Assembly (NCBI RefSeq): GCF_021172045.1
Contig: NZ_CP087164.1
Coordinates: 1,116,001 to 1,180,000 of the forward strand
From: Capillimicrobium parvum
Lineage (GTDB): Bacteria; Actinomycetota; Thermoleophilia; Solirubrobacterales; Solirubrobacteraceae
DNA: 64,000 nucleotides
Direction: 5' to 3'
Each line of letters starts with the position of its first letter. The first letter of the stretch is position 1. Of the stretch, positions 6,113 through 24,061 are shown piece by piece. The notes beneath the pieces were generated by a model. It was not told the origin of the DNA, searched no databases, and saw nothing but the letters and a program-made list of their open reading frames with translations. The position numbers and the translations under genes are program-made.

Positions 6113-6124
6113 CTCCCATGGGAG
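6113..6124. repeat. Palindrome upstream of the aminotransferase gene
   Basis: CTCCCATGGGAG, a perfect 12-bp palindrome about 30 bp upstream of the start chosen at 6154, and a weaker GCCCG-AATC-CGGGC repeat at 6082-6095. They could be operators for one of the PucR regulators; this is inference. Confidence 0.35.
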
Positions 6125-6153
6125 CGTCCCGGGCACGGCCGGATACTCCGTTC

Positions 6154-7398
6154 ATGGGTCCGCGCACGCAGGACACCCGCCTCTGGCATCCGTTCAGCGA
6201 CATGGCCACGGTCCGCGACCGCGAGCTGGTCATCACCCGCGGCGAGGACGTCTGGCTGTGGGACGAGGACGGCAACCGGTACCTCGACGCCTTCGCCAGC
6301 CTCTGGTACACGAACATCGGGCACGGGCGAAGCGAGATCGCCGACGCGGTCGCCGCGCAGATGCGTGAGCTCGAGGCGTTCACGATCTTCTTCGACTACG
6401 CCAACCGCCCGGCGCTCGAGCTCGCCGAGCTGCTGGCCGAGCTGTCGCCGATGCCCGGCTCGCGGGTGATGCTCACGCCCGGCGGCGGCAGCGAGGCGAT
6501 CGACACGGCGGTGAAGATGGCGCGCCGCTACTGGTTCGAGATGGGCCAGCCCGACCGCCGCCATGTCGTCTCGCGCGCTCACGCCTACCACGGCTCCAAC
6601 GGGATCGGCACGGGCATCGGCGGCATCGACGCCAACCGGGACGGCTGGGGCGCCGCGCTGCCGGAGACCTCGCGCGTCGGCCACGACTCGGTCGAGGCGC
6701 TCGAGGGCGAGATCGCCCGCGTGGGGGCCGACCGCATCGCGGCGTTCGTCTGCGAGCCGGTCATGGGCGCCGGCGGCGTGCACCCGCCGCCGCCCGGCTA
6801 CATCGAGGGCGTCGCCGCGCTGTGCCGGGCGCACGACATCCTCTTCGTCTGCGACAGCGTCATCTGCGGCTTCGGGCGCCTCGGCACCTGGTTCGGCATC
6901 GAGCGCTGGAACGTCGAGCCGGACGTCATCACCTTCGCCAAGGGCGTCACCAGCGGCTACCTGCCCCTCGGCGGCGTGCTGTTCGGCGCGCGCGTGTGCG
7001 AGCCGTTCTGGTCGGAGCCCGGCAGGATGGTCCGCCACGGCTACACGTTCGCCGGCCACCCCGCGTGCTGCACGGCGGCGCTGGCGAACATCGCCGTGAT
7101 CGACCGCGAGGGGCTGCTGGACCGGGCGCTGGAGATCGAGCGCGACCTCACCGCGGTGCTGCGTCCGCTCGAGGACCATCCCGCGGTCGCCGAGGTGCGG
7201 TCCGGTACCGGGGCGATGGCCGCGGTCGAGCTCGTGGAGGAGGGCGGCGCGCCGGGGCTCATGATGCGGATGCGCGCCGCCGGGGTCCTCGTACGCGCCT
7301 CGAGCCCCACGGCGGTCGCGGTCTGCCCGCCCCTGACGATCACCCGCGAGCAGGTCGACACCATCGGCGAGGCGTTCGCGCACAGCCTGGGCGCGTGA
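6154..7398 (+). CDS. Class III (omega-type) aminotransferase
   Basis: 414 residues from the ATG at 6154, which lies 6 nt after a GATACT -10-like box; an ATG 12 codons upstream is also open but falls inside a palindrome. It is a PLP fold-type I class III enzyme: LTPGGGSEAIDTAVKMAR, RAHAYHGS, DSVICGFGRLG and the PLP lysine in FAKGVTSGY. Relatives move amino groups from beta-alanine, alanine or other omega-amino acids to pyruvate or glyoxylate. Its stop overlaps the next start (GTGA). In this locus an alanine-glyoxylate or beta-amino-acid role is attractive but unproven. Confidence 0.95.
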   Translation: MGPRTQDTRLWHPFSDMATVRDRELVITRGEDVWLWDEDGNRYLDAFASLWYTNIGHGRSEIADAVAAQMRELEAFTIFFDYANRPALELAELLAELSPMPGSRVMLTPGGGSEAIDTAVKMARRYWFEMGQPDRRHVVSRAHAYHGSNGIGTGIGGIDANRDGWGAALPETSRVGHDSVEALEGEIARVGADRIAAFVCEPVMGAGGVHPPPPGYIEGVAALCRAHDILFVCDSVICGFGRLGTWFGIERWNVEPDVITFAKGVTSGYLPLGGVLFGARVCEPFWSEPGRMVRHGYTFAGHPACCTAALANIAVIDREGLLDRALEIERDLTAVLRPLEDHPAVAEVRSGTGAMAAVELVEEGGAPGLMMRMRAAGVLVRASSPTAVAVCPPLTITREQVDTIGEAFAHSLGA

Positions 7399-8756
7399 TC
7401 GCCCAGCTGCGGCGGATCGCGGGCGATGACGCCGTCATCGAGGGGGCGCCGGCGCCCTATGCGTCGGACGCCACGCAGGAGACGCTCGGTCTGCGCGGCA
7501 GCGCGCGGGCGACCGTACGCCCGCCGGACGCCGAACGGGTCCGCCGGGTCGTCGCCTGGTGCTACGACCACGACGTGCCGATCGTGCCGCGCGGCGGCGG
7601 CACGGGCTTCGCGGGCGGCGCGGTGCCGAGCGAGGACGCCGTCGTGCTGTCGCTCGAGCGGCTCGATCGGTTCCGCGAGCTGGAGCCGGCAGCGTGGCGC
7701 GCCCACGTGGAGGCCGGCGTGTCGACCGCCACGGTCACGCGCCGCGCGCGCGAGTCCGGCCTCCTGTTCCCGCCGAACCCGGGCGCCGCCGAGCAGTCGC
7801 AGATCGGCGGCAACGTCGCGACGAACGCCGGCGGTCCGCGCGCGTTCAAGTACGGCGTCACGCGCCGGTGGGTGACCGGCCTGGAGGCGGTCGTCGCTCC
7901 CGGCGAGGTGCTGCGCACCGGCGGCGCGGTCCGCAAGGACGTCACCGGCTACGACCTCACCGGCCTGCTGTGCGGCTCCGAGGGGACGCTCGGGGTCGTC
8001 ACGTCGGTGTGGCTGCGCTTCGTCCCGCTGCCCGAGCGCAGCGCCCAGGTGGCCGGCTTCTACGAGTCGGCCGCGGACGGCTGCGCCGCGATCGCCGCGG
8101 TCTTCGCCAGCGGCGGGCAGCCCGCGGCGCTCGAGTACGTCGACGCCGGCGCGCTCGCCGCCACGGCCGCCGCCTTCCCGGCCGCCGTGCCCGCCGGCGC
8201 GCGCTTCCTCGTGCTCGCCGAGGCCGACGGCCGCGACGCCGAGGTCGCGTCCGACGCCGCGGAGCTGGGCGAGGCGCTCGCCGCCGGCGCCCTGCTGACG
8301 CATGTCGCGACCACGCGCGGCGACCTCGACGCGCTCGCCCGCTGGCGCGAAGGCGTGTCCGGGGCGGTCACCGGCCTGCTCGGCGCGAAGGTGTCGGACG
8401 ACGTCGCGGTCCCGGTCGAGCGCCTGGCCGAGATGCTCGAGCGCGCCGACGCGATCGGCGCGCGCCACGGCCTGCGGACCTGCAGCTGGGGCCACGCGGG
8501 CGACGGCAACCTGCACGTCAGCTTCCTCCTGCCGCCGGGCGACCTGCCGCTGCGCGCTGCGGCCATGCGCGCCAGCCACGAGCTCCACGCCGCGGCCGTC
8601 GAGCTCGGCGGCGCGATCTCCGGCGAGCACGGCATCGGCAGCGTCAAGCGCGGAGAGCTCGGCCTCCAGCTCGGCGACGTCGGCCTGCGCCTGCACGCCG
8701 CCGTCAAGCAGGCGCTCGACCCCAAGGGCCTCTTCAACCCGGGCAAGAAGCAATGA
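7395..8756 (+). CDS. FAD-linked 2-hydroxyacid dehydrogenase (GlcD-like)
   Basis: 453 residues from a GTG overlapping the previous stop. The N-terminal half is an FAD_binding_4 (VAO/PCMH-type) domain with PRGGGTGFAGG and GGNVATNAGGPRAFKYGVT; the C-terminal half is the FAD-linked oxidase C domain, with GHAGDGNLH and the GEHGIGSVKR signature near the end. Such enzymes oxidise glycolate, D-lactate or D-2-hydroxyglutarate in the cytoplasm or at the membrane. GlcE and GlcF partners are absent, so it may pass electrons to another acceptor. It is coupled to the ThDP enzyme by an ATGA overlap. Confidence 0.93.
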   Translation: MIAQLRRIAGDDAVIEGAPAPYASDATQETLGLRGSARATVRPPDAERVRRVVAWCYDHDVPIVPRGGGTGFAGGAVPSEDAVVLSLERLDRFRELEPAAWRAHVEAGVSTATVTRRARESGLLFPPNPGAAEQSQIGGNVATNAGGPRAFKYGVTRRWVTGLEAVVAPGEVLRTGGAVRKDVTGYDLTGLLCGSEGTLGVVTSVWLRFVPLPERSAQVAGFYESAADGCAAIAAVFASGGQPAALEYVDAGALAATAAAFPAAVPAGARFLVLAEADGRDAEVASDAAELGEALAAGALLTHVATTRGDLDALARWREGVSGAVTGLLGAKVSDDVAVPVERLAEMLERADAIGARHGLRTCSWGHAGDGNLHVSFLLPPGDLPLRAAAMRASHELHAAAVELGGAISGEHGIGSVKRGELGLQLGDVGLRLHAAVKQALDPKGLFNPGKKQ

Positions 8757-10449: not shown

Positions 10450-11946
10450 ATGCAGCGATTCACGCTGGCCGACGTCCTCGCCCAGGAGTCGCTCGGCCTG
10501 CGCCTCATGACGAGCGAACGCGGCGCGCTCGACCGGCTCGTCATGGGCGCCCACGGCACCGAGGCGCTGCACCCGATGCCGTGGATGCAGCACGACTGGG
10601 TGCTGCTGATCACCGGCGTGCGGCTCGTCGACCGTCCCGACCTGCAGCGCCACCTCGTCGAGGAGCTCGCCGACGGCGGGCTCGCCGCCCTCGGCTTCGG
10701 CGTCGGCATCGACTTCGACGAGGTGCCGGGCGAGCTCACCCGTGCCGCGGAGGAGCGCGGCTTCCCGGTCTTCGAGATCCCGCTGCGCACGCCGTTCCGG
10801 GAGATCATCACGTTCGTCAACCGGTCGCTGCTGAGCACCGAGGTGCACCAGATGCGGCGGCTGACCTCGATGCGGGAGTTCCTCCTCGACGCGCTGCAGG
10901 ATGCCGAGCCGCAGCAGCGCGTCGTCCAGCGCCTGGCCTCGCTGCTGTCGTGCACCGTCGCGCTGTTCGGCGTCGACGGCCGGCTGCTGCACGCCTCGGG
11001 CCCGGTGCCCCCGGACGAGCTGTGGGACGCGGTCGCGCTGCACGCGAAGGGCGGGGCGCCCGAGGTCCGCGGCACGCCGCCGGCGATCGCCGCCGTGCGC
11101 GACCGCGAGCTGGTCGCCGGCTGGCTCATCGTCGTGCGGCGCTCGCTCGACTCAGACGTCTACGCGCGGCCGCTCGTCGAGATGACCGCGGCCCTGCTGA
11201 GCACGCTCGCCGGCGTCCAGCGCATCTCGGCGGGGCGCCGGCGCGCGGAGCACGCCGCGTTCGTCAGCGACCTGCTGGCGGGCACGCGCGAGGACGAGGT
11301 CTGGCGCCACCGCGCCGCGGAGCTCGGGCTCGAGCTGGGCGGGCCGGTGGCGCTGCGCGCGATCGCGGCGGCGGGCGGCCCGCCGGACGCGCTCGCCGGC
11401 CGGCTCGACGCGGCGCTGGCGGCGCCGCCGGCGCTGTCGCGCCTGACGGCGCGGCGCGGGGAGGCGGCCGTCGCGGTCGTCCAGGCCCCGGACGCCGAGC
11501 TGCGCGGCCGGCTCGACGAGCTGTACCGCCGGCTCGGCGACGCCGCGATCGCCGTCGGCCGCCGTGCGGCGACCGTCCACGAACTGCGCGACTCGATCGC
11601 CGACGCGCTGCGGTCGGTCACCGGCGAGGCGGGCCGGGGCGCCGAGGTCGTCTGGTACGAGGACCTCGATCTCCTCAGCTGGCTGCTGCGCTGCGGCGAC
11701 GACGACGGCCTGGCCCGCAAGGCGCGCGCCGTCCTCGAGCCGCTGGCCGGGGACGCGGTCCTGCTGGAGACCCTCGACCGCTATTTCGCCTGCGGCCTGC
11801 ACGTCGTCCGCACCGCGAGGTCGCTGGGCCTGCACCCGAACTCGCTGCGCTACCGCCTCAGCCGCATCGAGGAGCGCCTCGGCCGCTCGCTGCAGGACCC
11901 GGAGACGATCGCCGCGCTGCACCTCGCGCGCCGGGCGTCGCGCTGA
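10450..11946 (+). CDS. PucR family transcriptional regulator
   Basis: 498 residues, full length for the family. Residues 1-125 form the purine-catabolism PucR N-terminal domain (FTLADVLAQESLGLRLMTS), the middle is a GAF-like sensor and GGDEF-like CdaR region, and the C-terminus holds the helix-turn-helix (LGLHPNSLRYRLSRIEERLG). Named relatives activate purine and ureide degradation. It sits between the ThDP unit and the urease/hydantoinase unit, on the same strand, with its own -10 box. I infer that it controls one or both units. Confidence 0.95.
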   Translation: MQRFTLADVLAQESLGLRLMTSERGALDRLVMGAHGTEALHPMPWMQHDWVLLITGVRLVDRPDLQRHLVEELADGGLAALGFGVGIDFDEVPGELTRAAEERGFPVFEIPLRTPFREIITFVNRSLLSTEVHQMRRLTSMREFLLDALQDAEPQQRVVQRLASLLSCTVALFGVDGRLLHASGPVPPDELWDAVALHAKGGAPEVRGTPPAIAAVRDRELVAGWLIVVRRSLDSDVYARPLVEMTAALLSTLAGVQRISAGRRRAEHAAFVSDLLAGTREDEVWRHRAAELGLELGGPVALRAIAAAGGPPDALAGRLDAALAAPPALSRLTARRGEAAVAVVQAPDAELRGRLDELYRRLGDAAIAVGRRAATVHELRDSIADALRSVTGEAGRGAEVVWYEDLDLLSWLLRCGDDDGLARKARAVLEPLAGDAVLLETLDRYFACGLHVVRTARSLGLHPNSLRYRLSRIEERLGRSLQDPETIAALHLARRASR

Positions 11947-11996
11947 CGGTTCGCACATCGTCTGAAGTCGAACGGGCCCCTTTGGACGATCTCCAG

Positions 11997-12015
11997 TGTC
12001 GGTGTCCGACATAGG
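11997..12015. promoter_or_regulatory. Inverted repeat upstream of the ureide operon, motif shared with the 20.47 kb gap
   Basis: TGTCGG-TGT-CCGACA (11997-12011) overlaps GTCCGACATAGG (12004-12015). The same 12 bases recur at 20471-20482, before the oxidase gene. Two copies in front of two segments of one catabolic locus suggest a shared regulator site; binding is inferred. Confidence 0.5.
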
Positions 12016-12035
12016 CCCGACAGAATGGGGGCGGA

Positions 12036-13022
12036 GTGAGGAGCGCTGAGGACAGCCCGGCTGCGCCGGTCGTCGCCGTCGTCGACTGCGGTCCCGACGA
12101 CCGCCCGCGGCTCGAGCGCCTCGAGGCGGCGGTTCCCACGCGCGTCTGCGACGGTCCCGCCGAGGGCGGCGCACTGGTCGAGCGGGCCGCCGGGTGCGCG
12201 GTCCTCGCCACGCTCTACACGTACACGCCGGTCACGGAGGCGGTCCTCGACGGCCTGCCCGGCCTGCGGCTCGTGATCACGCGGACCGCGGGCTCGTCGC
12301 ACATCGACCTCGGCGCCGCGCAGCGGCGCGGGATCGCGGTCGCCACGGTGCCCGAGGGCCCGACCCAGGCCGTCGCCGAGTACACGATCGCCGCGGCGAT
12401 CGCCCTCAGCCGCGGCCTGCCCGCCGCGGTCGCGTCCACCGCGCGCGGAGAGTGGGACTTCACCGGCTTCCGCGGCCATGACCTCGGCGGCCGCACGCTC
12501 GGCGTGGTCGGGCTGGGCCACATCGGCGCGCGGGTCGCGCAGCTGGGGCAGGCCTTCGGCATGCGCGTCGTGGGGTGGAGCCGCTCGGAGAAGGGCCTCG
12601 ACGGCGTCGAGCAGGTGCCGCTGCCGGCGCTGCTGCAGCGCGCGCACGTCGTGTCGGTCAACGTCGCGCTGGCGGCGGAGACGCACCGCCTGCTCGACGC
12701 GGCCGCCCTGGCCCGGATGCGCCCGGACGCGGTGCTGGTCAACACGTCGCGCGGCGAGACGATCGACCTCGACGCGCTGTGCGACCTGCTGCGCGCCGGG
12801 CGCCTGGGCGGCGCGTGGCTCGACGTGGTGGAGGGCGAGCCGGGGCTCCCGGCCGAGCGCCTCGAGGCGCTCGCGGCGGTCCCGAACCTCTTCGTCACTC
12901 CGCACATCTCCTGGCACACGCACGAGACGCTCGACCGTCAGTTCGACGGGATGATCGACCGCATCCTCGCGTTCTGCGCGCAGGACCACCGAACGGAGGA
13001 GCCGCACCATGCCAGCCCATGA
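12036..13022 (+). CDS. NAD(P)-dependent D-2-hydroxyacid dehydrogenase
   Basis: 328 residues from a GTG. It has the Rossmann motif GVVGLGHIGARVA (about residue 155) and the catalytic trio of the family: arginine in NTSRGE, glutamate in DVVEGEP and histidine in TPHISWHTH. Glyoxylate/hydroxypyruvate reductases and D-lactate or phosphoglycerate dehydrogenases share this plan. First gene of the urease/hydantoinase unit, it overlaps the amidohydrolase by 14 bp. Reduction of glyoxylate or an oxo-acid left after ureide cleavage would fit, but substrate is not shown by sequence. Confidence 0.93.
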   Translation: MRSAEDSPAAPVVAVVDCGPDDRPRLERLEAAVPTRVCDGPAEGGALVERAAGCAVLATLYTYTPVTEAVLDGLPGLRLVITRTAGSSHIDLGAAQRRGIAVATVPEGPTQAVAEYTIAAAIALSRGLPAAVASTARGEWDFTGFRGHDLGGRTLGVVGLGHIGARVAQLGQAFGMRVVGWSRSEKGLDGVEQVPLPALLQRAHVVSVNVALAAETHRLLDAAALARMRPDAVLVNTSRGETIDLDALCDLLRAGRLGGAWLDVVEGEPGLPAERLEALAAVPNLFVTPHISWHTHETLDRQFDGMIDRILAFCAQDHRTEEPHHASP

Positions 13023-14367
13023 CCTCGCCGTCGTCGGCGGCGACGTCGTCCTCGACGGCGGGTCCGTCGAGCGCGTGAACATCGGCATCAGCGACGGCCG
13101 CATCGTCACGCTGACCGACGGCCCGCTCGACGCGCGCGAGACGCTCGACGCCACGCGCCTGACCGTCCTGCCCGGCGCCGTCGACCAGCACTTCCACGTC
13201 TTCTGGAACTACGAGTGGGAGACGTACGAGAACGCCACGCGCGCGGCGGCCAAGGGCGGCGTCACCACGGTCGTCGACATGCCGCTCGACAACCCGCCGA
13301 CCCTGACCGCCGAGGCGCTGCGCGGCAAGCTCGCCGCGATCGCCGGCGCCTGCCACGTGGACTACGCGTCGTTCGGCGGCTACCTCGCCGACGACCCCTC
13401 CGAGATGGAGCGGATGGCCGAGGCGGGCGCGAGCTGCTTCAAGCTGTTCACCGGCGGCGTCGCCCCGCCCGGGATGTATCCGGGCGTCGACGACGGCCAG
13501 TTGCTCGATGCGCTGCGGCGGGCGGCGGCGATCGGGCTGCCGGTCACCGTGCACGCCGAGAACGCCTACATCGTCGACTTCGAGACGAACCGCCTCATGG
13601 GCGACGGCCGCACGGACATGGCCGCGTGGGACGACGCGCGCCCGTGGTACAGCGAGCTGGCCGCCGCGCACACGGTCGCGCTGCTGGCCGAGGTCACCGG
13701 CGCCCGCGTGATCCTTGCGCACGTCAGCTCGCCGCAGACCATGGAGGCGTTGGCCGGCTTTCGCGAGCGTGGCGTCGACGTGTGGACCGAGACCGGCCAC
13801 CACTACGTCTGCTCGACGAAGGAGCAGGCGCTCGAGGATCCGCGGCTGAAGTGGAACCCGCCGACGAGGGCGGCCGCCGAGGTCGAGCGGATGTGGGACC
13901 TGATCGCCGCGGGCGACGTGAACTCGGTCGGCAGCGACCACGCGCCGCTGCCGAAGGCCGAGGGTGCCGACGTGTGGAGCCAGTCGCCCGGGCCGGGCAA
14001 CAACGTGCAGACGATCCTGACGATCTTCGCGACGCAGGCGCGGCAGCGCGGCCTGTCGCTCGGGCGCATCGTCGATCTCGTGTCGACGCGCCCCGCGAAG
14101 CTGTTCGGGCTGTACCCGCGCAAGGGCGCGATCCGGCTCGGCTCGGACGCCGACCTGGCGATCGTCGACACGAACGCCGCGCGGACGCTGGACCCGGAGG
14201 AGCTCGAGTACATCGAGGGCCAGGCCAAGTGGTCGCCGTTCGAGGGGATGGACGTCACGGTCGACCCGATGCACACCGTGCTGCGCGGCAAGGTGATCTG
14301 CTCGCGCGGCGAGATCCTCGGCAGTCCGGGAGACGGGACCCACCTGGTCGGGGCGCGCATCAACTGA
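13009..14367 (+). CDS. Allantoinase/dihydroorotase-like amidohydrolase
   Basis: 452 residues with a complete binuclear metal set for cyclic amidohydrolases: HFH in AVDQHFHVF (about residue 60), the lysine expected to be carbamylated in CFKLFTGG (about 145), HAEN (about 184), LAHVSS (about 240) and the aspartate of GSDHAP (about 310). The protein resembles allantoinases and hydantoinases, which open cyclic ureides. It overlaps the dehydrogenase before it, and its stop shares one base with the ureA-like start (TGATG), so it is co-translated with the urease-like subunits. The exact ring substrate is not known. Confidence 0.93.
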   Translation: MPAHDLAVVGGDVVLDGGSVERVNIGISDGRIVTLTDGPLDARETLDATRLTVLPGAVDQHFHVFWNYEWETYENATRAAAKGGVTTVVDMPLDNPPTLTAEALRGKLAAIAGACHVDYASFGGYLADDPSEMERMAEAGASCFKLFTGGVAPPGMYPGVDDGQLLDALRRAAAIGLPVTVHAENAYIVDFETNRLMGDGRTDMAAWDDARPWYSELAAAHTVALLAEVTGARVILAHVSSPQTMEALAGFRERGVDVWTETGHHYVCSTKEQALEDPRLKWNPPTRAAAEVERMWDLIAAGDVNSVGSDHAPLPKAEGADVWSQSPGPGNNVQTILTIFATQARQRGLSLGRIVDLVSTRPAKLFGLYPRKGAIRLGSDADLAIVDTNAARTLDPEELEYIEGQAKWSPFEGMDVTVDPMHTVLRGKVICSRGEILGSPGDGTHLVGARIN

Positions 14368-14675
14368 TGCAGCTGACCGGCCGCGAGACCGAGCGCCTGC
14401 TGATCTTCGCCGCCGCGGAGCTGGCCCGGCGGCGGATGCGCGAGGGCATCCTGCTCAGCCATCCGGACTGCGTCGCGCTCGCGAGCGACGTGGCGATGGA
14501 GGCCGCGCGGGCCGGGCGCAGCTACGAGGAGGTCCAGGACAGCGCGGCCGGGATCGTCGGGCGCGAGCAGCTGCTGTCCGGCGTGGCGGAGCTGCTCGAG
14601 CAGCCGCTGCAGGTGGAGGCGACGTTCGGCGACGGCAGCCGCCTCGTCGCGCTGCGCGGGCTGGTGCGGGCGTGA
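14367..14675 (+). CDS. ureA: Urease gamma subunit homologue
   Basis: 102 residues, normal length. It matches UreA along its length: LTGRETERLLIFAAAELARRR at the start, then LLSHPDCVALASD, a REQLLSGVAELL stretch and VEATFGDGSRLV near the end. In true ureases this subunit packs on UreC and does not carry the metal site. The start shares one base with the previous stop and the end overlaps ureB by 4 bp. Together with the next two genes it forms an ABC subunit set, but no UreD, E, F, G or nickel transporter gene is in the window. Confidence 0.9.
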   Translation: MQLTGRETERLLIFAAAELARRRMREGILLSHPDCVALASDVAMEAARAGRSYEEVQDSAAGIVGREQLLSGVAELLEQPLQVEATFGDGSRLVALRGLVRA

Positions 14676-14926
14676 GGCCGGGCGAGATCATCCTGGCCGA
14701 TGCGCCTGCGCCCGCGGCCGATCACGCCCGGACCGCCACCGTCGCGGTGACGAACGCCGGCCGCTTCGACGCCTACCTGACATCGCACTTCCCCGTGGCG
14801 CGCGCGTCGGCGGCGCTGCGGTTCGACCGCGACGGGCTCGACGGCGCGCGCCCGCTGCTGCCGTCGGGCGCGAGCGTCCTCATCCCCGCCGGCGCGACCG
14901 TGGACGTGGAGGTCACGTGGAGCTGA
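14672..14926 (+). CDS. ureB: Urease beta subunit homologue, shortened
   Basis: 84 residues from a GTG. It begins with the UreB hallmark RPGEIILAD and keeps the VTNAGRFDAYLTSHF and LRFDRDG blocks, but lacks the C-terminal 15-20 residues (the GFNG-type tail) found in usual UreB, which is about 100 residues long. The SHFHF motif is SHFPV here. The frame is intact and overlaps both neighbours, so the shortening looks natural rather than a break. It supports the idea of a divergent urease-like enzyme. Confidence 0.85.
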   Translation: MRPGEIILADAPAPAADHARTATVAVTNAGRFDAYLTSHFPVARASAALRFDRDGLDGARPLLPSGASVLIPAGATVDVEVTWS

Positions 14927-16587
14927 GCCGCGCCGAGTACGCGGCGCTCTACGGACCGGCGACCGGCGACCGGGTGCGCCTCGCCGACACGAACCTGCTC
15001 GTGCGCGTCGAGGCCGACGACAACGCGCCCGGGCACGAGCCGGTCGTCGGCTTCGGCAAGGCGATCCGCGACGGCCAGCTCGCGGGCGGCGGGCGGCCGC
15101 TCGAGGAGGCGATGGACGTCGTCGTCACGAACGTCCTGGTGCTCGACCCGGTCCTCGGCATCCGCAAGACGTGCCTCGGCATCCGCGACGGGCGCATCGC
15201 CGCCATGGGCCGCGCCGGCGACCCGGACCGCGACGACCAGGTGCGCGTCCCCATCAGCTCCGCCACCGGCATCGTCGCCGCCGAGGGCCTGATCGCCACG
15301 CCGGGGGCGGTCGACTCGCACGTGCACCTCATCGGCCCGCAGCTCGTGCCGGCCGCGCTCGAGGGCGGCACGACCACCGTCGTGGCGATGAGCTACAGCG
15401 GCGCCTTCGACGTCGGGATCAACCCGCGCGCCAACTTCGACCGGTTGCTCGACGCGTGGTCGGCGGTGCCGCTGAACCTCGTCCCGATGGTGCGCGGATC
15501 GACGGCGAACGCCGGCTTCCTCGAGGCGCTGCTGGAGATGGGCGGCGGCGCGTTCAAGATCCACGAGGACGTCGGCGCGTACCCCGACGTCGTCGACGCC
15601 GTCCTCGCCTGCGCCGACCGCCACGACGTCGGCGTCGCGCTGCACGCCGACGGCCTCGGCGAGTCGGCCACGCTCGGCGAGACCCTCGACGCGATCGCCG
15701 GGCGCGCGGTCCACGCCTACCACGTCGAGGGCTGCGGCGGCGGGCCCACCGACGTGCTCGAGCTGGTCTCGCAGCCGCACGTGCTGCCCTCCTCGACGAC
15801 GCCGACCGTCCCCTTCGGCGTCAACGTCGCCGCCGAGCACGAGGAGATGATCGCGACCGTCCACCGCCTGCACCCGGCGCTGCCCAACGACGCGCGCGCA
15901 GCCCGCGGCCGCATCCGCCCGTGGACCGTCGCGGCCGAGTCGGTGCTGCACGACCTCGGCGCCATCAGCGTCATGAGCTCGGACTCGATGGGCATGGGCC
16001 GCATGAGCGAGGTGACGCGGCGCACGTGGCAGCTCGCGCACGTCATGCGCGAGGCGGCCGGCGAGACCGGCGACGATGCCAACGAACGAGTCCTGCGCTA
16101 TCTCGCCAAGCTCACGATCAACCCGGCGCTGATCCACGGCATCGCCCACGACGTCGGCTCGCTGGAGACCGGCAAGCTCGCCGACGTGGTCCTGTGGCGC
16201 CCCGCGTTCTTCGGCATCGTGCCGCATCTGGTGCTGAAGGCCGGGTTCCCGGTCTGGGGCGCGCGCGGGTCCGCGTACGCCTCGACGCGTCACGGCGAGC
16301 CGGTGATCCAGGGCGAGCTGTGGGGCAGTCTGGGCGCCGCGCCCGCGCAGCTCGCGACCGTCTACGCGAGCGCCGCCGGCGAGGCCCGCGTCCGCGCCCG
16401 CCGGTCCGGCCGCGTCGGGGTCGTGCGCGCCACGCGTTCCGTGCGCAAGGCCGACCTCGTGCGCAACGCCGCGACGCCCCGCGTCGAGGTCGACGGCGAG
16501 CGGCGCGAGGTGCGCGTCGAGGGCGCCGCGATCGACCTGCAACCCGTGACCGACCTGCCCATGAACGCCGCGTACACGCTGGCCTGA
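14917..16587 (+). CDS. ureC: Urease alpha subunit homologue (divergent)
   Basis: 556 residues from a GTG preceded by a GTGGAGGT ribosome site. All nickel ligands of UreC are present: H135 and H137 (DSHVHL), K214 (AFKIHEDVG, the carbamylated lysine), H243 (ALHADG), H269 (AYHVEG) and D356 (SSDSMGMG); H216 and H316 are also kept. The mobile-flap cysteine position of classical ureases is V315 (MIATVHRL), and the GGGHAPD motif is reduced to GGGPTDV. It may hydrolyse urea or another ureido compound made by the neighbouring cyclic amidohydrolases. Missing accessory genes leave nickel loading open. Confidence 0.9.
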   Translation: MELSRAEYAALYGPATGDRVRLADTNLLVRVEADDNAPGHEPVVGFGKAIRDGQLAGGGRPLEEAMDVVVTNVLVLDPVLGIRKTCLGIRDGRIAAMGRAGDPDRDDQVRVPISSATGIVAAEGLIATPGAVDSHVHLIGPQLVPAALEGGTTTVVAMSYSGAFDVGINPRANFDRLLDAWSAVPLNLVPMVRGSTANAGFLEALLEMGGGAFKIHEDVGAYPDVVDAVLACADRHDVGVALHADGLGESATLGETLDAIAGRAVHAYHVEGCGGGPTDVLELVSQPHVLPSSTTPTVPFGVNVAAEHEEMIATVHRLHPALPNDARAARGRIRPWTVAAESVLHDLGAISVMSSDSMGMGRMSEVTRRTWQLAHVMREAAGETGDDANERVLRYLAKLTINPALIHGIAHDVGSLETGKLADVVLWRPAFFGIVPHLVLKAGFPVWGARGSAYASTRHGEPVIQGELWGSLGAAPAQLATVYASAAGEARVRARRSGRVGVVRATRSVRKADLVRNAATPRVEVDGERREVRVEGAAIDLQPVTDLPMNAAYTLA

Positions 16588-20442: not shown

Positions 20443-20482
20443 CGTTGGCGCAACGTCGTGGCGGGCCGAAGTCCGACATAGG
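20443..20482. promoter_or_regulatory. Inverted repeat and shared motif before the DadA-like gene
   Basis: CGTTG-GCG-CAACG at 20443-20455, then GTCCGACATAGG at 20471-20482, identical to the sequence at 12004-12015. A GGAGG ribosome site follows at 20481-20485. The gap is the only break in the downstream half of the locus. Confidence 0.45.
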
Positions 20483-20491
20483 AGGACGGCA

Positions 20492-21631
20492 GTGGCGAGG
20501 GTGTGCGTCGTCGGGGCAGGCGTCGTCGGCGCGTGCGCTGCGCTGCGCCTCACGCAGGCCGGGGCCGACGTCACGGTGATCGACGCGGGGCCGCCCGCGG
20601 GCGGCACGAGCGCCACGAGCTTCGCGTGGGGCGGGGCCAGCCACCACGGCCTGCGCGACTACCTCGAGCTGCACGTCGACGGGCTGCGCGCCTACCGCCG
20701 GCTCGAGCTCGAGATGGACGCGCGGGCGTGGTACGGGCGCACCGGCTGCCTGACCTGGCGCAGCGATCCGGCGGCGGCGGGCTCGCTCGCCGCGCATCTC
20801 GAGGACCTCGGCCGCCGCGGCTACCCGGCGAGCTGGCTCACGCCGGCGGCGGTGACCCGCGACCTCGAGCCGGACCTGCGCTTCGCGGCCGGCGTCGGCG
20901 AGGTCGCGTTCCTGCCCGACGAGGCGCACGTCGCCGCGGTGCCGATGGTGCGCGACGTGCTCGGCGCCGCCCGCGCCGGCGGGGCCGTCGTGCGCACGGG
21001 TGCGCGCGTGCGGGAGATCGCGCTCCGCGGCGACGCGGTGGCGGGCGTGACGCTCGCCGGCGGCGAGACGATCGCCGCCGATCGCGTCGTCGTCTGCGGC
21101 GGCCGCGGGTCGAGCGAGGTCGTGGCCACCGCGGGCGGCCATCTGCCGCTGCTGGATCCCGACACGCCGGGATCGCCGGCGCTCGGCCTGCTCGTCGTCA
21201 CCGCACCGCTGCCGGCGCGCGTGCGGCGGGTCCTCTACGCCGACGAGCTCATGGTGCGCCCGGACGGCGGCGCGCGGCTCATGCTCCACAGCGACCCGCA
21301 CGACGCCGAGCTGGCGGCCGCCCCGGGAACCGATCCGGCGCCGCTCGCCGGCGCGGTGCTCGGCGAGCTGCGCCGCCACCTCGACGGCGCCGAGCACGCG
21401 AGCGTCGAGGCGACCCGCATCGGCCGCCGCGTCCTGACGCCCGACCACCTGCCCGCGGTCGGGTGGATCGGCGACGCCGCCGGCCTGTACGTCGCCGCGA
21501 CGCACAGCGGCGTGAGCCTCGCGCCCGTCCTCGGCGAGCTGATCGCCGACGAGGTCGCGCGCGAACGCCCGTCGCCGGCACTCGACCGCTTCCGCCCCAC
21601 GCGCTTTGCGAAGGAGCTCTCCAATGCATGA
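20492..21631 (+). CDS. FAD-dependent oxidoreductase (DAO/DadA-like)
   Basis: 379 residues from a GTG with ribosome site GGAGG 7-11 nt upstream. The N-terminus is a dinucleotide-binding fold (VCVVGAGVVGACAALRLTQAG) and the C-terminus has GLYVAATHSGVSLAP, typical of the D-amino acid oxidase/glycine oxidase/sarcosine oxidase superfamily. These remove hydrogen from amines or amino acids, giving imines and then oxo-acids plus ammonia. It overlaps the dihydropyrimidinase-like gene by 8 bp. D-amino acids from hydantoin hydrolysis would be a sensible substrate; this is inferred from context. Confidence 0.9.
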   Translation: MARVCVVGAGVVGACAALRLTQAGADVTVIDAGPPAGGTSATSFAWGGASHHGLRDYLELHVDGLRAYRRLELEMDARAWYGRTGCLTWRSDPAAAGSLAAHLEDLGRRGYPASWLTPAAVTRDLEPDLRFAAGVGEVAFLPDEAHVAAVPMVRDVLGAARAGGAVVRTGARVREIALRGDAVAGVTLAGGETIAADRVVVCGGRGSSEVVATAGGHLPLLDPDTPGSPALGLLVVTAPLPARVRRVLYADELMVRPDGGARLMLHSDPHDAELAAAPGTDPAPLAGAVLGELRRHLDGAEHASVEATRIGRRVLTPDHLPAVGWIGDAAGLYVAATHSGVSLAPVLGELIADEVARERPSPALDRFRPTRFAKELSNA

Positions 21632-23102
21632 CCTGCTGATCGCCGGCGGCACCGTCGTCACGCCCGCCGGGAGCGAGCCGCTCGACGTCGCCGTCGACGG
21701 CGAGCGCATCGCCGTGCTCGCGCCTCACGGCGAACTGGGCCGCGATGCGCGCCGCGTCATCGACGCCGCCGGGTGCCTCGTGATCCCGGGGGCGATCGAC
21801 CCGCACGTCCACTACGCGATGAACTTCGAGGGCATACTCACGACCGAGGGCCCCGAGTACTCGGCGGCCGCCGCGTACGGAGGCAACACCACCGTCGTCG
21901 ACTTCGCCTTCCAGGCGCCGCCCCAGAGCCTGCACGACGCGATCGCCGCCAAGCAGGCCGTGCTCGGGGGCGCGATGGCCGTCGACTACGGCCTGCACGC
22001 GATCCTCACCAAGGACTTCTCGTTCGACGTCGTCGAGGAGATCGGCGACGTGATCCGCGCCGGCATCCCGACGATCAAGACGATGCTGACCTACGGGTAC
22101 ATGTCCGACGACGGGCAGCGCTGGGGGACGATGAACGCCGTCGCGCAGAACGGCGGCATGAGCGTCGTGCACGCCGAGGACGACGCGATCGCCCGCTGGC
22201 TCACCGCGCAGTACGTGCGCGAGGGCAAGACTCACGGCGCCTACATCTGCGAGGTCCGCGGCCCGATCGTCGAGGAGGCCGCGATCCGCCGGGCGATGTT
22301 CCTCGCCGAGCGCTCCGGGTCGCCGCTGTACGTCCTGCACATGGCGGCCGGCAGCGGCGTCGCCGCGCTCGCCGAGGGAAGGGCGCGCGGGCTGCCGTTC
22401 TACGGCGAGACGCTCAGCGCGTACCTGAGCTTCACGCAGGACGACCTGTGGGACGAGTCGCCGGTCGACGTCGACGGGACCATCTACCCCCAGCGCGGCC
22501 TGCTGTTCAACAACTACCCGACGCCGAAGTTCGGGCCCGACCGCGACGCCTGCTGGGCGGCGCTGGTCTCCGGCGACCTGCAGGCGGTGGCCACCGACCA
22601 CTGCCTCGTGAGCCTGAAGGACCGCTTCGAGACGATGGGAACGACCGTCGACAGCATGCAGGCGGGCCAGGCGGCGGTCGAGCTGCGGGTGCCGCTGCTC
22701 TACGACGGCGGGGTCAACGGCGGGCGCTTCAGCGTCGAGCGCTGGGTCGAGCTCATCTCGGTCAACCCGGCCAAGCTCATGGGCCTGTGGCCGCGCAAGG
22801 GCCGCCTCGCGCCGGGCGCCGACGCGGACGTCGTGGTCTTCGACCCGCAGAAGCGCTGGACCGTCCGTTGGGAGGATCTGCACATGAAGGAGCGCTACAG
22901 CTGCTGGGACGGCTGGGAGCTGACCGGCAAGGTGCGCGACACCATCCTGCGCGGGACCGCGATCGTCGACGGCGGGCGGTTCGTGGGCGACAGCGGCGGC
23001 GGGCGGTACGTCCCCCGGCGGATGCTGCCGGAGGTGCTGCGCGGCGACTTCGCGTTCACGGCGCAGGCGCTCGGCGCCCCGCAGCCGGAGCCGGCGGCAT
23101 GA
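21624..23102 (+). CDS. Dihydropyrimidinase/D-hydantoinase-like amidohydrolase
   Basis: 492 residues, start at ATG 21624 with AAGGAG 7 nt upstream. It shows the dihydropyrimidinase metal set: HVH in AIDPHVHYAM (about residue 59), the lysine of TIKTMLTYG (about 152), HAED (about 185), LHMAAGSG (about 238) and the aspartate of ATDHCLVS (about 330). NPAKLMGLWPRKG is the normal C-terminal block. It is the second cyclic amidohydrolase of this locus, besides the allantoinase-like gene at 13.0 kb, suggesting two ring substrates or two steps. It overlaps the acetamidase-like gene by 4 bp. Confidence 0.93.
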   Translation: MHDLLIAGGTVVTPAGSEPLDVAVDGERIAVLAPHGELGRDARRVIDAAGCLVIPGAIDPHVHYAMNFEGILTTEGPEYSAAAAYGGNTTVVDFAFQAPPQSLHDAIAAKQAVLGGAMAVDYGLHAILTKDFSFDVVEEIGDVIRAGIPTIKTMLTYGYMSDDGQRWGTMNAVAQNGGMSVVHAEDDAIARWLTAQYVREGKTHGAYICEVRGPIVEEAAIRRAMFLAERSGSPLYVLHMAAGSGVAALAEGRARGLPFYGETLSAYLSFTQDDLWDESPVDVDGTIYPQRGLLFNNYPTPKFGPDRDACWAALVSGDLQAVATDHCLVSLKDRFETMGTTVDSMQAGQAAVELRVPLLYDGGVNGGRFSVERWVELISVNPAKLMGLWPRKGRLAPGADADVVVFDPQKRWTVRWEDLHMKERYSCWDGWELTGKVRDTILRGTAIVDGGRFVGDSGGGRYVPRRMLPEVLRGDFAFTAQALGAPQPEPAA

Positions 23103-24061
23103 GCCTCGCCGAGACCGCCCGGGAGATCCGGACCGAGAACTACAGCTACGCCTTCAGCCCGTACCCCGAGCCCATCGCGCGCGTGGCGTCCGGCGAGCTG
23201 CTGGACATCTTCACCGACGACGCGTTCGAGTCGCGCGTGCAGAGCGTGGACGACCTGCCGTCGAAGGTGCTCACCGACCCGTACCTGAACCCGCAGACCG
23301 GCCCGATCTTCGTCGAGGGCGCCGAGCCCGGCGACACGCTGTGCGTCGAGATCCTCGAGATCGCGCCGGAGCGCGACTTCGTCGCCAGCGCGCACATCCC
23401 GTACTTCGGCGGGCTGACCGGGACGGCGGCGACGGCGATGCTCAACGAGCCGCTGCCCGAGCGCGTGTTCATCTACCCGCTGCGCGACGGCTTCGTGGAG
23501 ATGCCCCACGGCGTGCGGATCCCGTATGCGCCGTTCCTGGGGACGATCGGGACGGCGCCGCTGTTCGAGGCGATCAGCTCGCTGACGCCGGGGCCGTTCG
23601 GCGGCAACATGGACGTCGCCGACGTCTGCGCCGGCAACGTCGTGCGCCTGCCGGTCCGCGTCGAGGGCGCGTACTTCTACACCGGCGACGCGCACGCGGC
23701 CCAGGGCGACGGCGAGCTGTGCGGCGTCGCGTGCGAGATGACCGCGCGGGTGCGGCTGCGCCTCACCGTCGAGAAGGGCACGGCGGCGCCGTGGCCGCGG
23801 ATCGTCTCACCCGGGCAGCTCATGAGCGTCGGCAGCGCCCGGCCGATGGAGGACGCGGCGCGCATCGCCTATCACGACCTGCTCACGTGGCTCGAGGCCG
23901 ACTACGGCTGGGACCGCTGGGAGGCCTACCAGCTGCTGACCCAGGCCGGGCGCGTGCGGCTGGGCAACATGGTGGACCCGCAGTACTCGGTCGTCGCGAA
24001 GATCGACCGTGAGCTGGCCGAGGCGGCCAGGTCAGGTCGAGGAGGAGACGGAGTCCGCTGA
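23099..24061 (+). CDS. Acetamidase/formamidase family protein
   Basis: 320 residues with FmdA/AmdA family features: GPIFVEGAEPGDTLCVEILEI (split across about residues 62-85), GPFGGNMDVADVC (about 161-173) and the GDAHAAQGDGELCG metal/active region (about 195-208). Family members cleave formamide, acetamide and similar small amides. It is shorter than the formamidase at 51.0 kb (417 residues), so it belongs to another subgroup. Last gene of the ureide locus; its 3' end overlaps the end of the convergent receiver gene by 30 bp. Confidence 0.9.
   Translation: MSLAETAREIRTENYSYAFSPYPEPIARVASGELLDIFTDDAFESRVQSVDDLPSKVLTDPYLNPQTGPIFVEGAEPGDTLCVEILEIAPERDFVASAHIPYFGGLTGTAATAMLNEPLPERVFIYPLRDGFVEMPHGVRIPYAPFLGTIGTAPLFEAISSLTPGPFGGNMDVADVCAGNVVRLPVRVEGAYFYTGDAHAAQGDGELCGVACEMTARVRLRLTVEKGTAAPWPRIVSPGQLMSVGSARPMEDAARIAYHDLLTWLEADYGWDRWEAYQLLTQAGRVRLGNMVDPQYSVVAKIDRELAEAARSGRGGDGVR

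Follow-up and report, generated by a model that had tools for sequence, protein, structure and literature searches.

Urease is the textbook example of an enzyme that has a single physiological substrate and its own machinery for delivering nickel, and nearly all ureases need helper genes. What, then, is the role of three urease-like genes that lie without such helpers in an operon of ureide-ring enzymes? This question is raised by a 64,000-nucleotide stretch of the Capillimicrobium parvum genome (contig NZ_CP087164.1, positions 1,116,001 to 1,180,000), the whole of which is referred to here as the window and in which the following trio was found:

14367..14675, + strand: UreA (gamma)-like subunit, 102 amino acids; Pfam PF00547 Urease_gamma, E 8.5e-27; TIGR00193, 84.0 bits against a cut-off of 82.3
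14672..14926, + strand: UreB (beta)-like subunit without the C-terminal tail, 84 amino acids; PF00699 Urease_beta, E 5.5e-9; TIGR00192, 37.8 bits, under the cut-off of 90.3
14917..16587, + strand: UreC (alpha)-like catalytic subunit, 556 amino acids; PF00449 and PF01979; Urease_alpha, E 8.5e-35

Judged by sequence and gene context, we lean slightly towards the trio being an accessory-independent carbamoylase of N-substituted ureas, built on the urease fold and part of a branch that stands apart within that family.

The initial annotation, made from the letters alone, had recognised three overlapping UreA, UreB and UreC homologues, and the coordinates and Pfam matches bear this out. The genes overlap head to tail, with an ATG start for ureA, which overlaps the stop of the upstream hydantoinase gene, and GTG starts for ureB and ureC. 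All three subunits exceed the Pfam gathering scores. With the NCBIfam urease-alpha model TIGR01792 the UreC-like protein scored 534 bits, under the equivalog cut-off of 680, and the only model it passed was the broad subfamily model PRK13207. Its AlphaFold2 (AF2) model (predicted local distance difference test score 82.5, predicted template modelling score 0.89) matched ureases with Z of 47-53 (about 52) across about 520-552 residues, while the next-best folds, dihydroorotase and hydantoinase, gave Z of about 25. Scores against cyclic amidohydrolase models were about 22 bits for allantoinase and at most 23.3 bits for dihydroorotase, far under the cut-offs. In Pfam the trio contained urease and amidohydrolase domains only, and no CN_hydrolase domain was found in it.

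The active site is that of a urease at its centre and altered at its edge. Alignment with Klebsiella aerogenes urease (KAE) confirmed what had been read from the sequence about the six nickel ligands, the valine in the flap and the shortened loop: H135, H137, K214, H243, H269 and D356 are all kept and align with the Klebsiella ligands. H216, D218, H316 and R332 also align, with H316 as the catalytic histidine (KAE H320), H216 as the substrate histidine (KAE H219) and R332 as the flap arginine (KAE R336). The flap cysteine (KAE C319) is replaced by V315, and GGGPTD stands where urease has the longer GGGHAPD loop. With G359 as a further change, both the flap and the pocket edge are altered.

The missing UreB tail was likewise a correct observation. 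The window UreB ends 47 residues past the start of the SHF motif, where most relatives have about 85-109 (a Klebsiella UreA/UreB row included in this tail alignment serves as illustration only). A frameshift or assembly error was considered as the cause and rejected, because the orthologue in a related genome, G669 (71% identity), stops at the identical residue and UreB is short in related subclades as well. The tail is lost in the window's subclade and in the one sister-subclade member checked. A tie between tail loss and chaperone independence stays speculative, because other chaperone-free members of the branch keep a long tail.

Accessory genes were then sought in the whole host genome, which is a single 5.95-Mb contig. 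The trio's UreC is its sole UreC; the second, canonical ureABC-DEFG that the initial annotation had proposed to look for was not found in this complete genome. UreD and UreE gave no match there, and UreG none above the cut-off, the only signal being a 23.6-bit HypB-like match inside a hydrogenase cluster. UreF gave one match of 66.8 bits, covering model positions 44-150 only, 2.4 Mb from the trio (G000:C1:3567989-3568312, or L124:9990-10313; G-numbers denote genomes, G000 being the window's own, and L-numbers the loci compared). This fragment lacks the first 43 model positions, lies antisense to a permease-like fragment and appears to be what is left of a urease cluster that was lost. Loading by remote accessory genes, which had been offered as an alternative, is rejected as far as the known chaperones are concerned, since UreC is the only one of its kind, no UreD, UreE or UreG rises above its cut-off and UreF is an N-terminally truncated remnant. 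The case named in advance as fatal was a sole urease with ordinary urea activity, served by accessory genes elsewhere: the UreC is indeed sole, but no working accessory set was found genome-wide. The reported lack of UreDEFG genes and of nickel transport needs a similar division. No UreD, UreE or UreG was detected above cut-off, whereas four NicO-family matches lie elsewhere in the genome and nickel transport is missing only from the window; nickel therefore remains a possible metal.

The position of the trio in the family was examined with homologues collected from GTDB contigs, from plasmids and from genomes at the level of the phylum (396) and of the class (399). In a 71-row tree, 26 canonical UreC, including those of Proteobacteria, Archaea and Deinococcus, formed one clade with 100/100 support, and all the other rows, the window UreC among them, fell outside it. 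As the tree is midpoint-rooted, the branch of the window UreC is the other side of a split and not a proven clade; UreC of Bacillus subtilis and Helicobacter mustelae are absent from the tree. Branch-type UreC were found in Actinomycetota and Thermomicrobiota, and the branch has many and varied members. In 140 of the 141 distinct UreC all six metal ligands are kept, as are the catalytic residues. The search for valine at the flap position did find it, though not as a peculiarity of the trio: V (or else A or I) is what members of the branch normally have there, compared with C in canonical UreC. The branch also mostly reads GMGR where urease mostly reads AMGR (the Klebsiella A363 position is usually Gly). 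Exceptions at the flap were seen on both sides, with C in L064 (Nonomuraea) inside the branch and V in L014 inside the canonical clade. A separate oddity is a Deinococcus aetherius plasmid (L182:5001-6722), where a canonical-type UreC has its carbamylated Lys replaced by Thr and ureF is split; this probably reflects a dead urease or else an error in sequencing.

Accessory genes divide along the same line. UreD above cut-off was present in none of the 27 genomes with only branch-type UreC (12 and 15 in two checks), judged by Pfam search and with many relatives being draft genomes; the 27 include several complete or almost complete assemblies (G000 and G669 are single contigs, G171 has five). 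Canonical UreC was accompanied by UreD in 24 of 25 genomes, and the exception (G404) has UreF and UreG. In G171, which is branch-type only, a 23-bit sub-threshold UreD remnant lies beside a broken canonical ureC. Where a genome holds both types, UreF and UreD adjoin the canonical gene (e.g. G399:C29, G400:C2, G402:C9, G406:C5, G540:C56). Because several of the defining features tested, namely equivalog score, flap cysteine, loop, accessory genes and membership of the canonical clade, came out otherwise for the trio, we do not class it as a urease.

What the branch may do instead is suggested by its gene partners. An agmatine-deiminase-like gene lies within 1.5 kb of ureABC in 64 of 106 long loci, from Streptomyces, Kitasatospora, Streptacidiphilus, Thermoactinospora and Thermocatellispora and from a distant subclade of the window's own class (L126, L174, L173) with a different gene order. 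These loci are mostly from Streptomyces and not independent of each other; those from the window's own class are independent. The deiminase-like gene scores 284 bits, under the strict AguA cut-off of 382, and agmatine is therefore no more than its likely substrate. Many Streptomyces loci also include an NCS1 (cytosine/purine/allantoin) permease, and polyamine-type ATP-binding cassette (ABC) transporters adjoin L129 and L165.

One of these loci permits a direct comparison with the host. In C. parvum itself (L203) an acyl-CoA dehydrogenase gene, a small conserved protein and an agmatine deiminase (6320-7273) are followed, with genes in between, by a nitrilase (11868-12788), an Amidase_2 gene (12791-13369) and, further on, an Fpg-like gene (15440-16219). 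At the corresponding G669 locus (L173) the order is acyl-CoA dehydrogenase (79% identity), small protein (64%), agmatine deiminase (55%, on the other strand), a B12-binding protein, ureAB, ureC, Amidase_2 (68%) and Fpg-like (77%), with ureC ending at 10915 and the Amidase_2 gene starting at 10916. From the two gene orders, the partner of Amidase_2 is the nitrilase in C. parvum and ureC in G669. The sole NCBIfam match of that nitrilase is N-carbamoylputrescine amidase (210 bits, under the cut-off of 410). Read from gene order and similarity, this exchange provides the strongest single clue that the branch may perform a carbamoylase step. No nitrilase-type carbamoylase was found in the window or in any branch locus examined.

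Several further deiminase and plasmid loci were noted in passing. In L054, L073, L077, L080, L092 and L110 the ureABC-like genes are surrounded by agmatine-deiminase-like genes, two to four per cluster, of which some seem to carry secretion signals; an ABC transporter or NCS1 permease is present in some of these clusters as well. On Streptomyces and Embleya plasmids a bare branch-type ure(AB)C lies in nonribosomal peptide synthetase clusters with several phosphotransferases (L177:6282-8647, L178:6294-8680), where it may act in tailoring, on a ureido group.

In the window itself the trio is part of a tight operon: the hydantoinase/allantoinase-like gene ends on the ureA start, hyuA begins 10 bases past ureC, and hyuB overlaps hyuA. 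The operon map agrees with the earlier placement of the trio between an allantoinase-like gene and HyuA/HyuB, and comprises:

6118..7398, + strand: class-III aminotransferase; kept in L161 (the G669 locus)
7395..8756, + strand: GlcD-like FAD-linked oxidase; PF02913/PF01565; TIGR00387, 333.8 bits, under cut-off; kept in L161
8753..10420, + strand: thiamine diphosphate (ThDP)-dependent enzyme, 2-oxoacid decarboxylase/acetolactate synthase-like; PF02776/PF02775/PF00205; all NCBIfam scores under cut-off; kept in L161
10450..11946, + strand: PucR-family regulator; PF07905 and PF13556; kept in L161
12036..13022, + strand: D-2-hydroxyacid dehydrogenase; PF02826; kept beside the hydantoinase in L161-L163
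13009..14367, + strand: allantoinase/L-hydantoinase-like cyclic amidohydrolase; best PDB match 1gkr, an L-selective hydantoinase; TIGR03178, 306.6 bits, under the cut-off of 357.85; adjoins ureABC in L161-L163
16597..18651, + strand: HyuA-like protein (ATP-dependent hydantoinase/oxoprolinase A); PF01968; best PDB match N-methylhydantoinase; kept in L161 and L164
18648..20432, + strand: HyuB-like protein (hydantoinase/oxoprolinase B); PF02538; kept in L161 and L164
20471..21631, + strand: FAD-dependent amino-acid-oxidase-type enzyme (DAO); PF01266; not seen in L161
21606..23102, + strand: second cyclic amidohydrolase, D-hydantoinase/dihydropyrimidinase-like; TIGR02033, 334 bits, under the cut-off of 393; not seen in L161
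23099..24061, + strand: acetamidase/formamidase-family protein; PF03069, E 1.2e-31

The last three genes (20471-24061), which follow hyuB and were not seen at the G669 locus, form a looser part of the operon. Gene calls based on GC frame are unreliable in places, and the argument uses only genes backed by BLAST or hidden Markov models. A search for DNA motifs within the window gave nothing informative.

The operon is conserved, and the trio itself is far beyond chance. In G669, at about 78-79% UreC identity, the order aminotransferase-GlcD-ThDP enzyme-PucR-2-hydroxyacid dehydrogenase-hydantoinase-ureABC-hyuA-hyuB is found, and UreC is among the most conserved operon proteins (ratio of nonsynonymous to synonymous substitution rates, dN/dS, about 0.34, with dS probably saturated). 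G632 and G540 (64-65% UreC identity) retain dehydrogenase-hydantoinase-ureABC; hyuAB is on the opposite strand in G632 and absent from the stretch read in G540. In G738 (61%) ureABC-hyuA-hyuB occurs with a sugar-type ABC transporter. The same neighbourhood, which was to be sought among UreC clades, thus recurs as dehydrogenase-hydantoinase-ureABC at 64-79% identity, but only in the window's subclade, and it was rejected as a mark of the whole branch. The sister subclade (L035-L045) has Amidohydrolase_3 and a major facilitator superfamily transporter beside ureABC. A glycerate kinase gene follows branch-type ureABC in one genus of metagenome-assembled genomes (L166-L168, L172, and L039/L176).

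On the proposed route, the three subunits would assemble as in urease, and the UreC-like protein would hold a dinuclear metal site with a carbamylated lysine together with the catalytic histidine. The metal, presumably, would enter unaided by UreDEFG, as it does in hydantoinases that bind metal through a similar set of ligands. The pocket would admit R-NH-CO-NH2, and the reaction would be R-NH-CO-NH2 -> R-NH2 + CO2 + NH3. In the window, R is probably an amino or oxo acid that the neighbouring hydantoinase/allantoinase-like enzyme frees by opening a cyclic ureide; the L-hydantoinase 1GKR acts before a carbamoylase in its known pathway. For the deiminase-linked relatives the substrate is probably N-carbamoylputrescine, as suggested by the operon partner and the syntenic replacement. 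The initial suggestion of a ureido compound other than urea is hence strengthened by phylogeny, conserved operon context and the replacement of the nitrilase, with the substrate itself being our inference. More tentatively, and with a somewhat greater chance of being wrong than right, the whole Actinomycetota/Thermomicrobiota branch now annotated as urease may be a family of non-urease carbamoylases with a chaperone-free metal site that replaces nitrilase-type carbamoylases.

Several points weigh against this carbamoylase assignment. The trio lacks none of the residues on which urea hydrolysis is known to depend, and flap-cysteine variants of Klebsiella urease retain activity. The hydantoinase-linked and deiminase-linked subclades are distinct, so that the substrate proposal passes between them by analogy, and the neighbours in some subclades (glycerate kinase, citrate synthase-like) have no tie to ureido compounds. 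The step could equally be taken by HyuAB or by distant carbamoylases; Streptomyces genomes have an AguB-like nitrilase far from the ure(AB)C locus, and SCO6414 has been named a homologue of the arginine-decarboxylase pathway (PMC3293853). The main rival is a true, chaperone-free urease, ordinary or perhaps of low activity, that loads itself and removes urea made in the ureide pathway (e.g. from allantoate or ureidoglycolate). The complete urease active site and the urease fold at Z of about 52 speak for it, as do the PucR regulator and the allantoinase-like neighbour, which fit purine/ureide breakdown, and precedents exist in B. subtilis ureABC (PMC8600894) and H. mustelae UreAB2 (PMC2846917). 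Yet the branch stands apart from the canonical UreC in the tree, in which these two precedents were not included, and its commonest neighbour, agmatine deiminase, yields a substituted urea and not urea. In G669, moreover, ureABC takes the place of a nitrilase carbamoylase rather than of a urease, and a second urease would be redundant in the 13 of 25 branch-bearing genomes first checked that also keep a canonical urease with its chaperones. We consider this rival rather unlikely, though it deserves to be taken seriously.

The hydrogenase cluster of the host, with its HypB-like GTPase, and the NicO-type transporters would also suit a nickel enzyme, acting on urea or another substrate, that is loaded by HypA/HypB instead of UreEFGD. 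This is very improbable, as eight branch genomes (G208, G022, G245, G037, G117, G397, G401, G405) gave no match to the UreG/HypB-like model TIGR00101, itself a weak detector of HypB. Comparably slim chances are given to a ring-opening role of the UreC-like protein, as a cyclic amidohydrolase, or to its being a subunit that works with HyuAB: dihydroorotase and hydantoinase are its next-best folds and hyuAB belongs to the same operon, but that operon already has two dedicated ring-opening enzymes, no cyclic substrate is obvious for the relatives next to agmatine deiminase, and the G540 and G632 arrangements show ureABC without co-directional hyuAB. The least probable explanation, for which we see hardly any room, is a decaying, inactive urease that lost its accessory genes. 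The truncated UreB and the UreF remnant would fit such decay, whereas the fully kept catalytic residues, the strong conservation of UreC, the identical UreB end in G669 and the size and diversity of the branch argue against it.

If the trio is indeed a carbamoylase, the urease fold can be repurposed, with the same active site operating without chaperones and probably on another substrate. The sister branch then allows one to ask which sequence features impose UreDFG dependence. Many Streptomyces genomes, in which ure(AB)C is taken as ureolysis, would have their annotation corrected, and a candidate enzyme would be at hand for the N-carbamoylputrescine step of streptomycete agmatine use.

Probable members of the branch have been encountered before under another name. 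The bare ure(AB)C of Streptomyces coelicolor, SCO5525-5526, was described without accessory genes in 2008 (PMC2492869), and listed as urea-utilising in 2012 (PMC3293853), and in 2017 ure(AB)C was included with the functional urease clusters (PMC5489568). SCO5527 is named in PMC3293853 as a homologue of the arginine-decarboxylase pathway. The naming of SCO5526-SCO5524 as nrdABS (PMC4991794) conflicts with two other papers, is probably a misprint and was set aside. This cluster resembles the trio in being bare, and its gene order matches the deiminase-linked Streptomyces members of the branch; it differs in its fused UreA-UreB and in having an agmatine deiminase as neighbour instead of a hydantoinase, with the Streptomyces members at about 48% UreC identity. 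In the open-licence literature searched, no report of a urease-like enzyme of such kind was found, nor any functional test or distinct function of a bare ure(AB)C.

Compared with canonical urease (Klebsiella aerogenes 1FWJ/2KAU, Sporosarcina pasteurii), the trio has the same three subunits, the same fold (43% identity), the same ligands and catalytic histidine, and the same substrate histidine and arginine. It differs in lying outside the clade, in the Cys-to-Val change of the flap, the short loop, the missing UreB tail, the lack of UreDEFG and the alpha and beta scores under the equivalog cut-offs. B. subtilis UreABC shares the absence of ureDEFG genes but is a urea-hydrolysing urease, of very low activity (PMC8600894), and accessory genes are therefore not a universal test for urease. 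The iron urease UreAB2 of H. mustelae (3QGA), independent of nickel and accessory proteins (PMC2846917), has the same fold but is a true urease, and its host has a second one besides. AguB and HyuC/beta-ureidopropionase carbamoylases share the proposed reaction, and the AguB-like nitrilase of C. parvum sits in the genomic slot that ureABC takes in G669, but their folds (nitrilase or M20) are unrelated, so the likeness is one of analogy and not homology. Bare ure(AB)C and chaperone-free ureases were thus known; the apparent novelty lies in recognising a chaperone-free branch as distinct, with gene contexts of the carbamoylase type.

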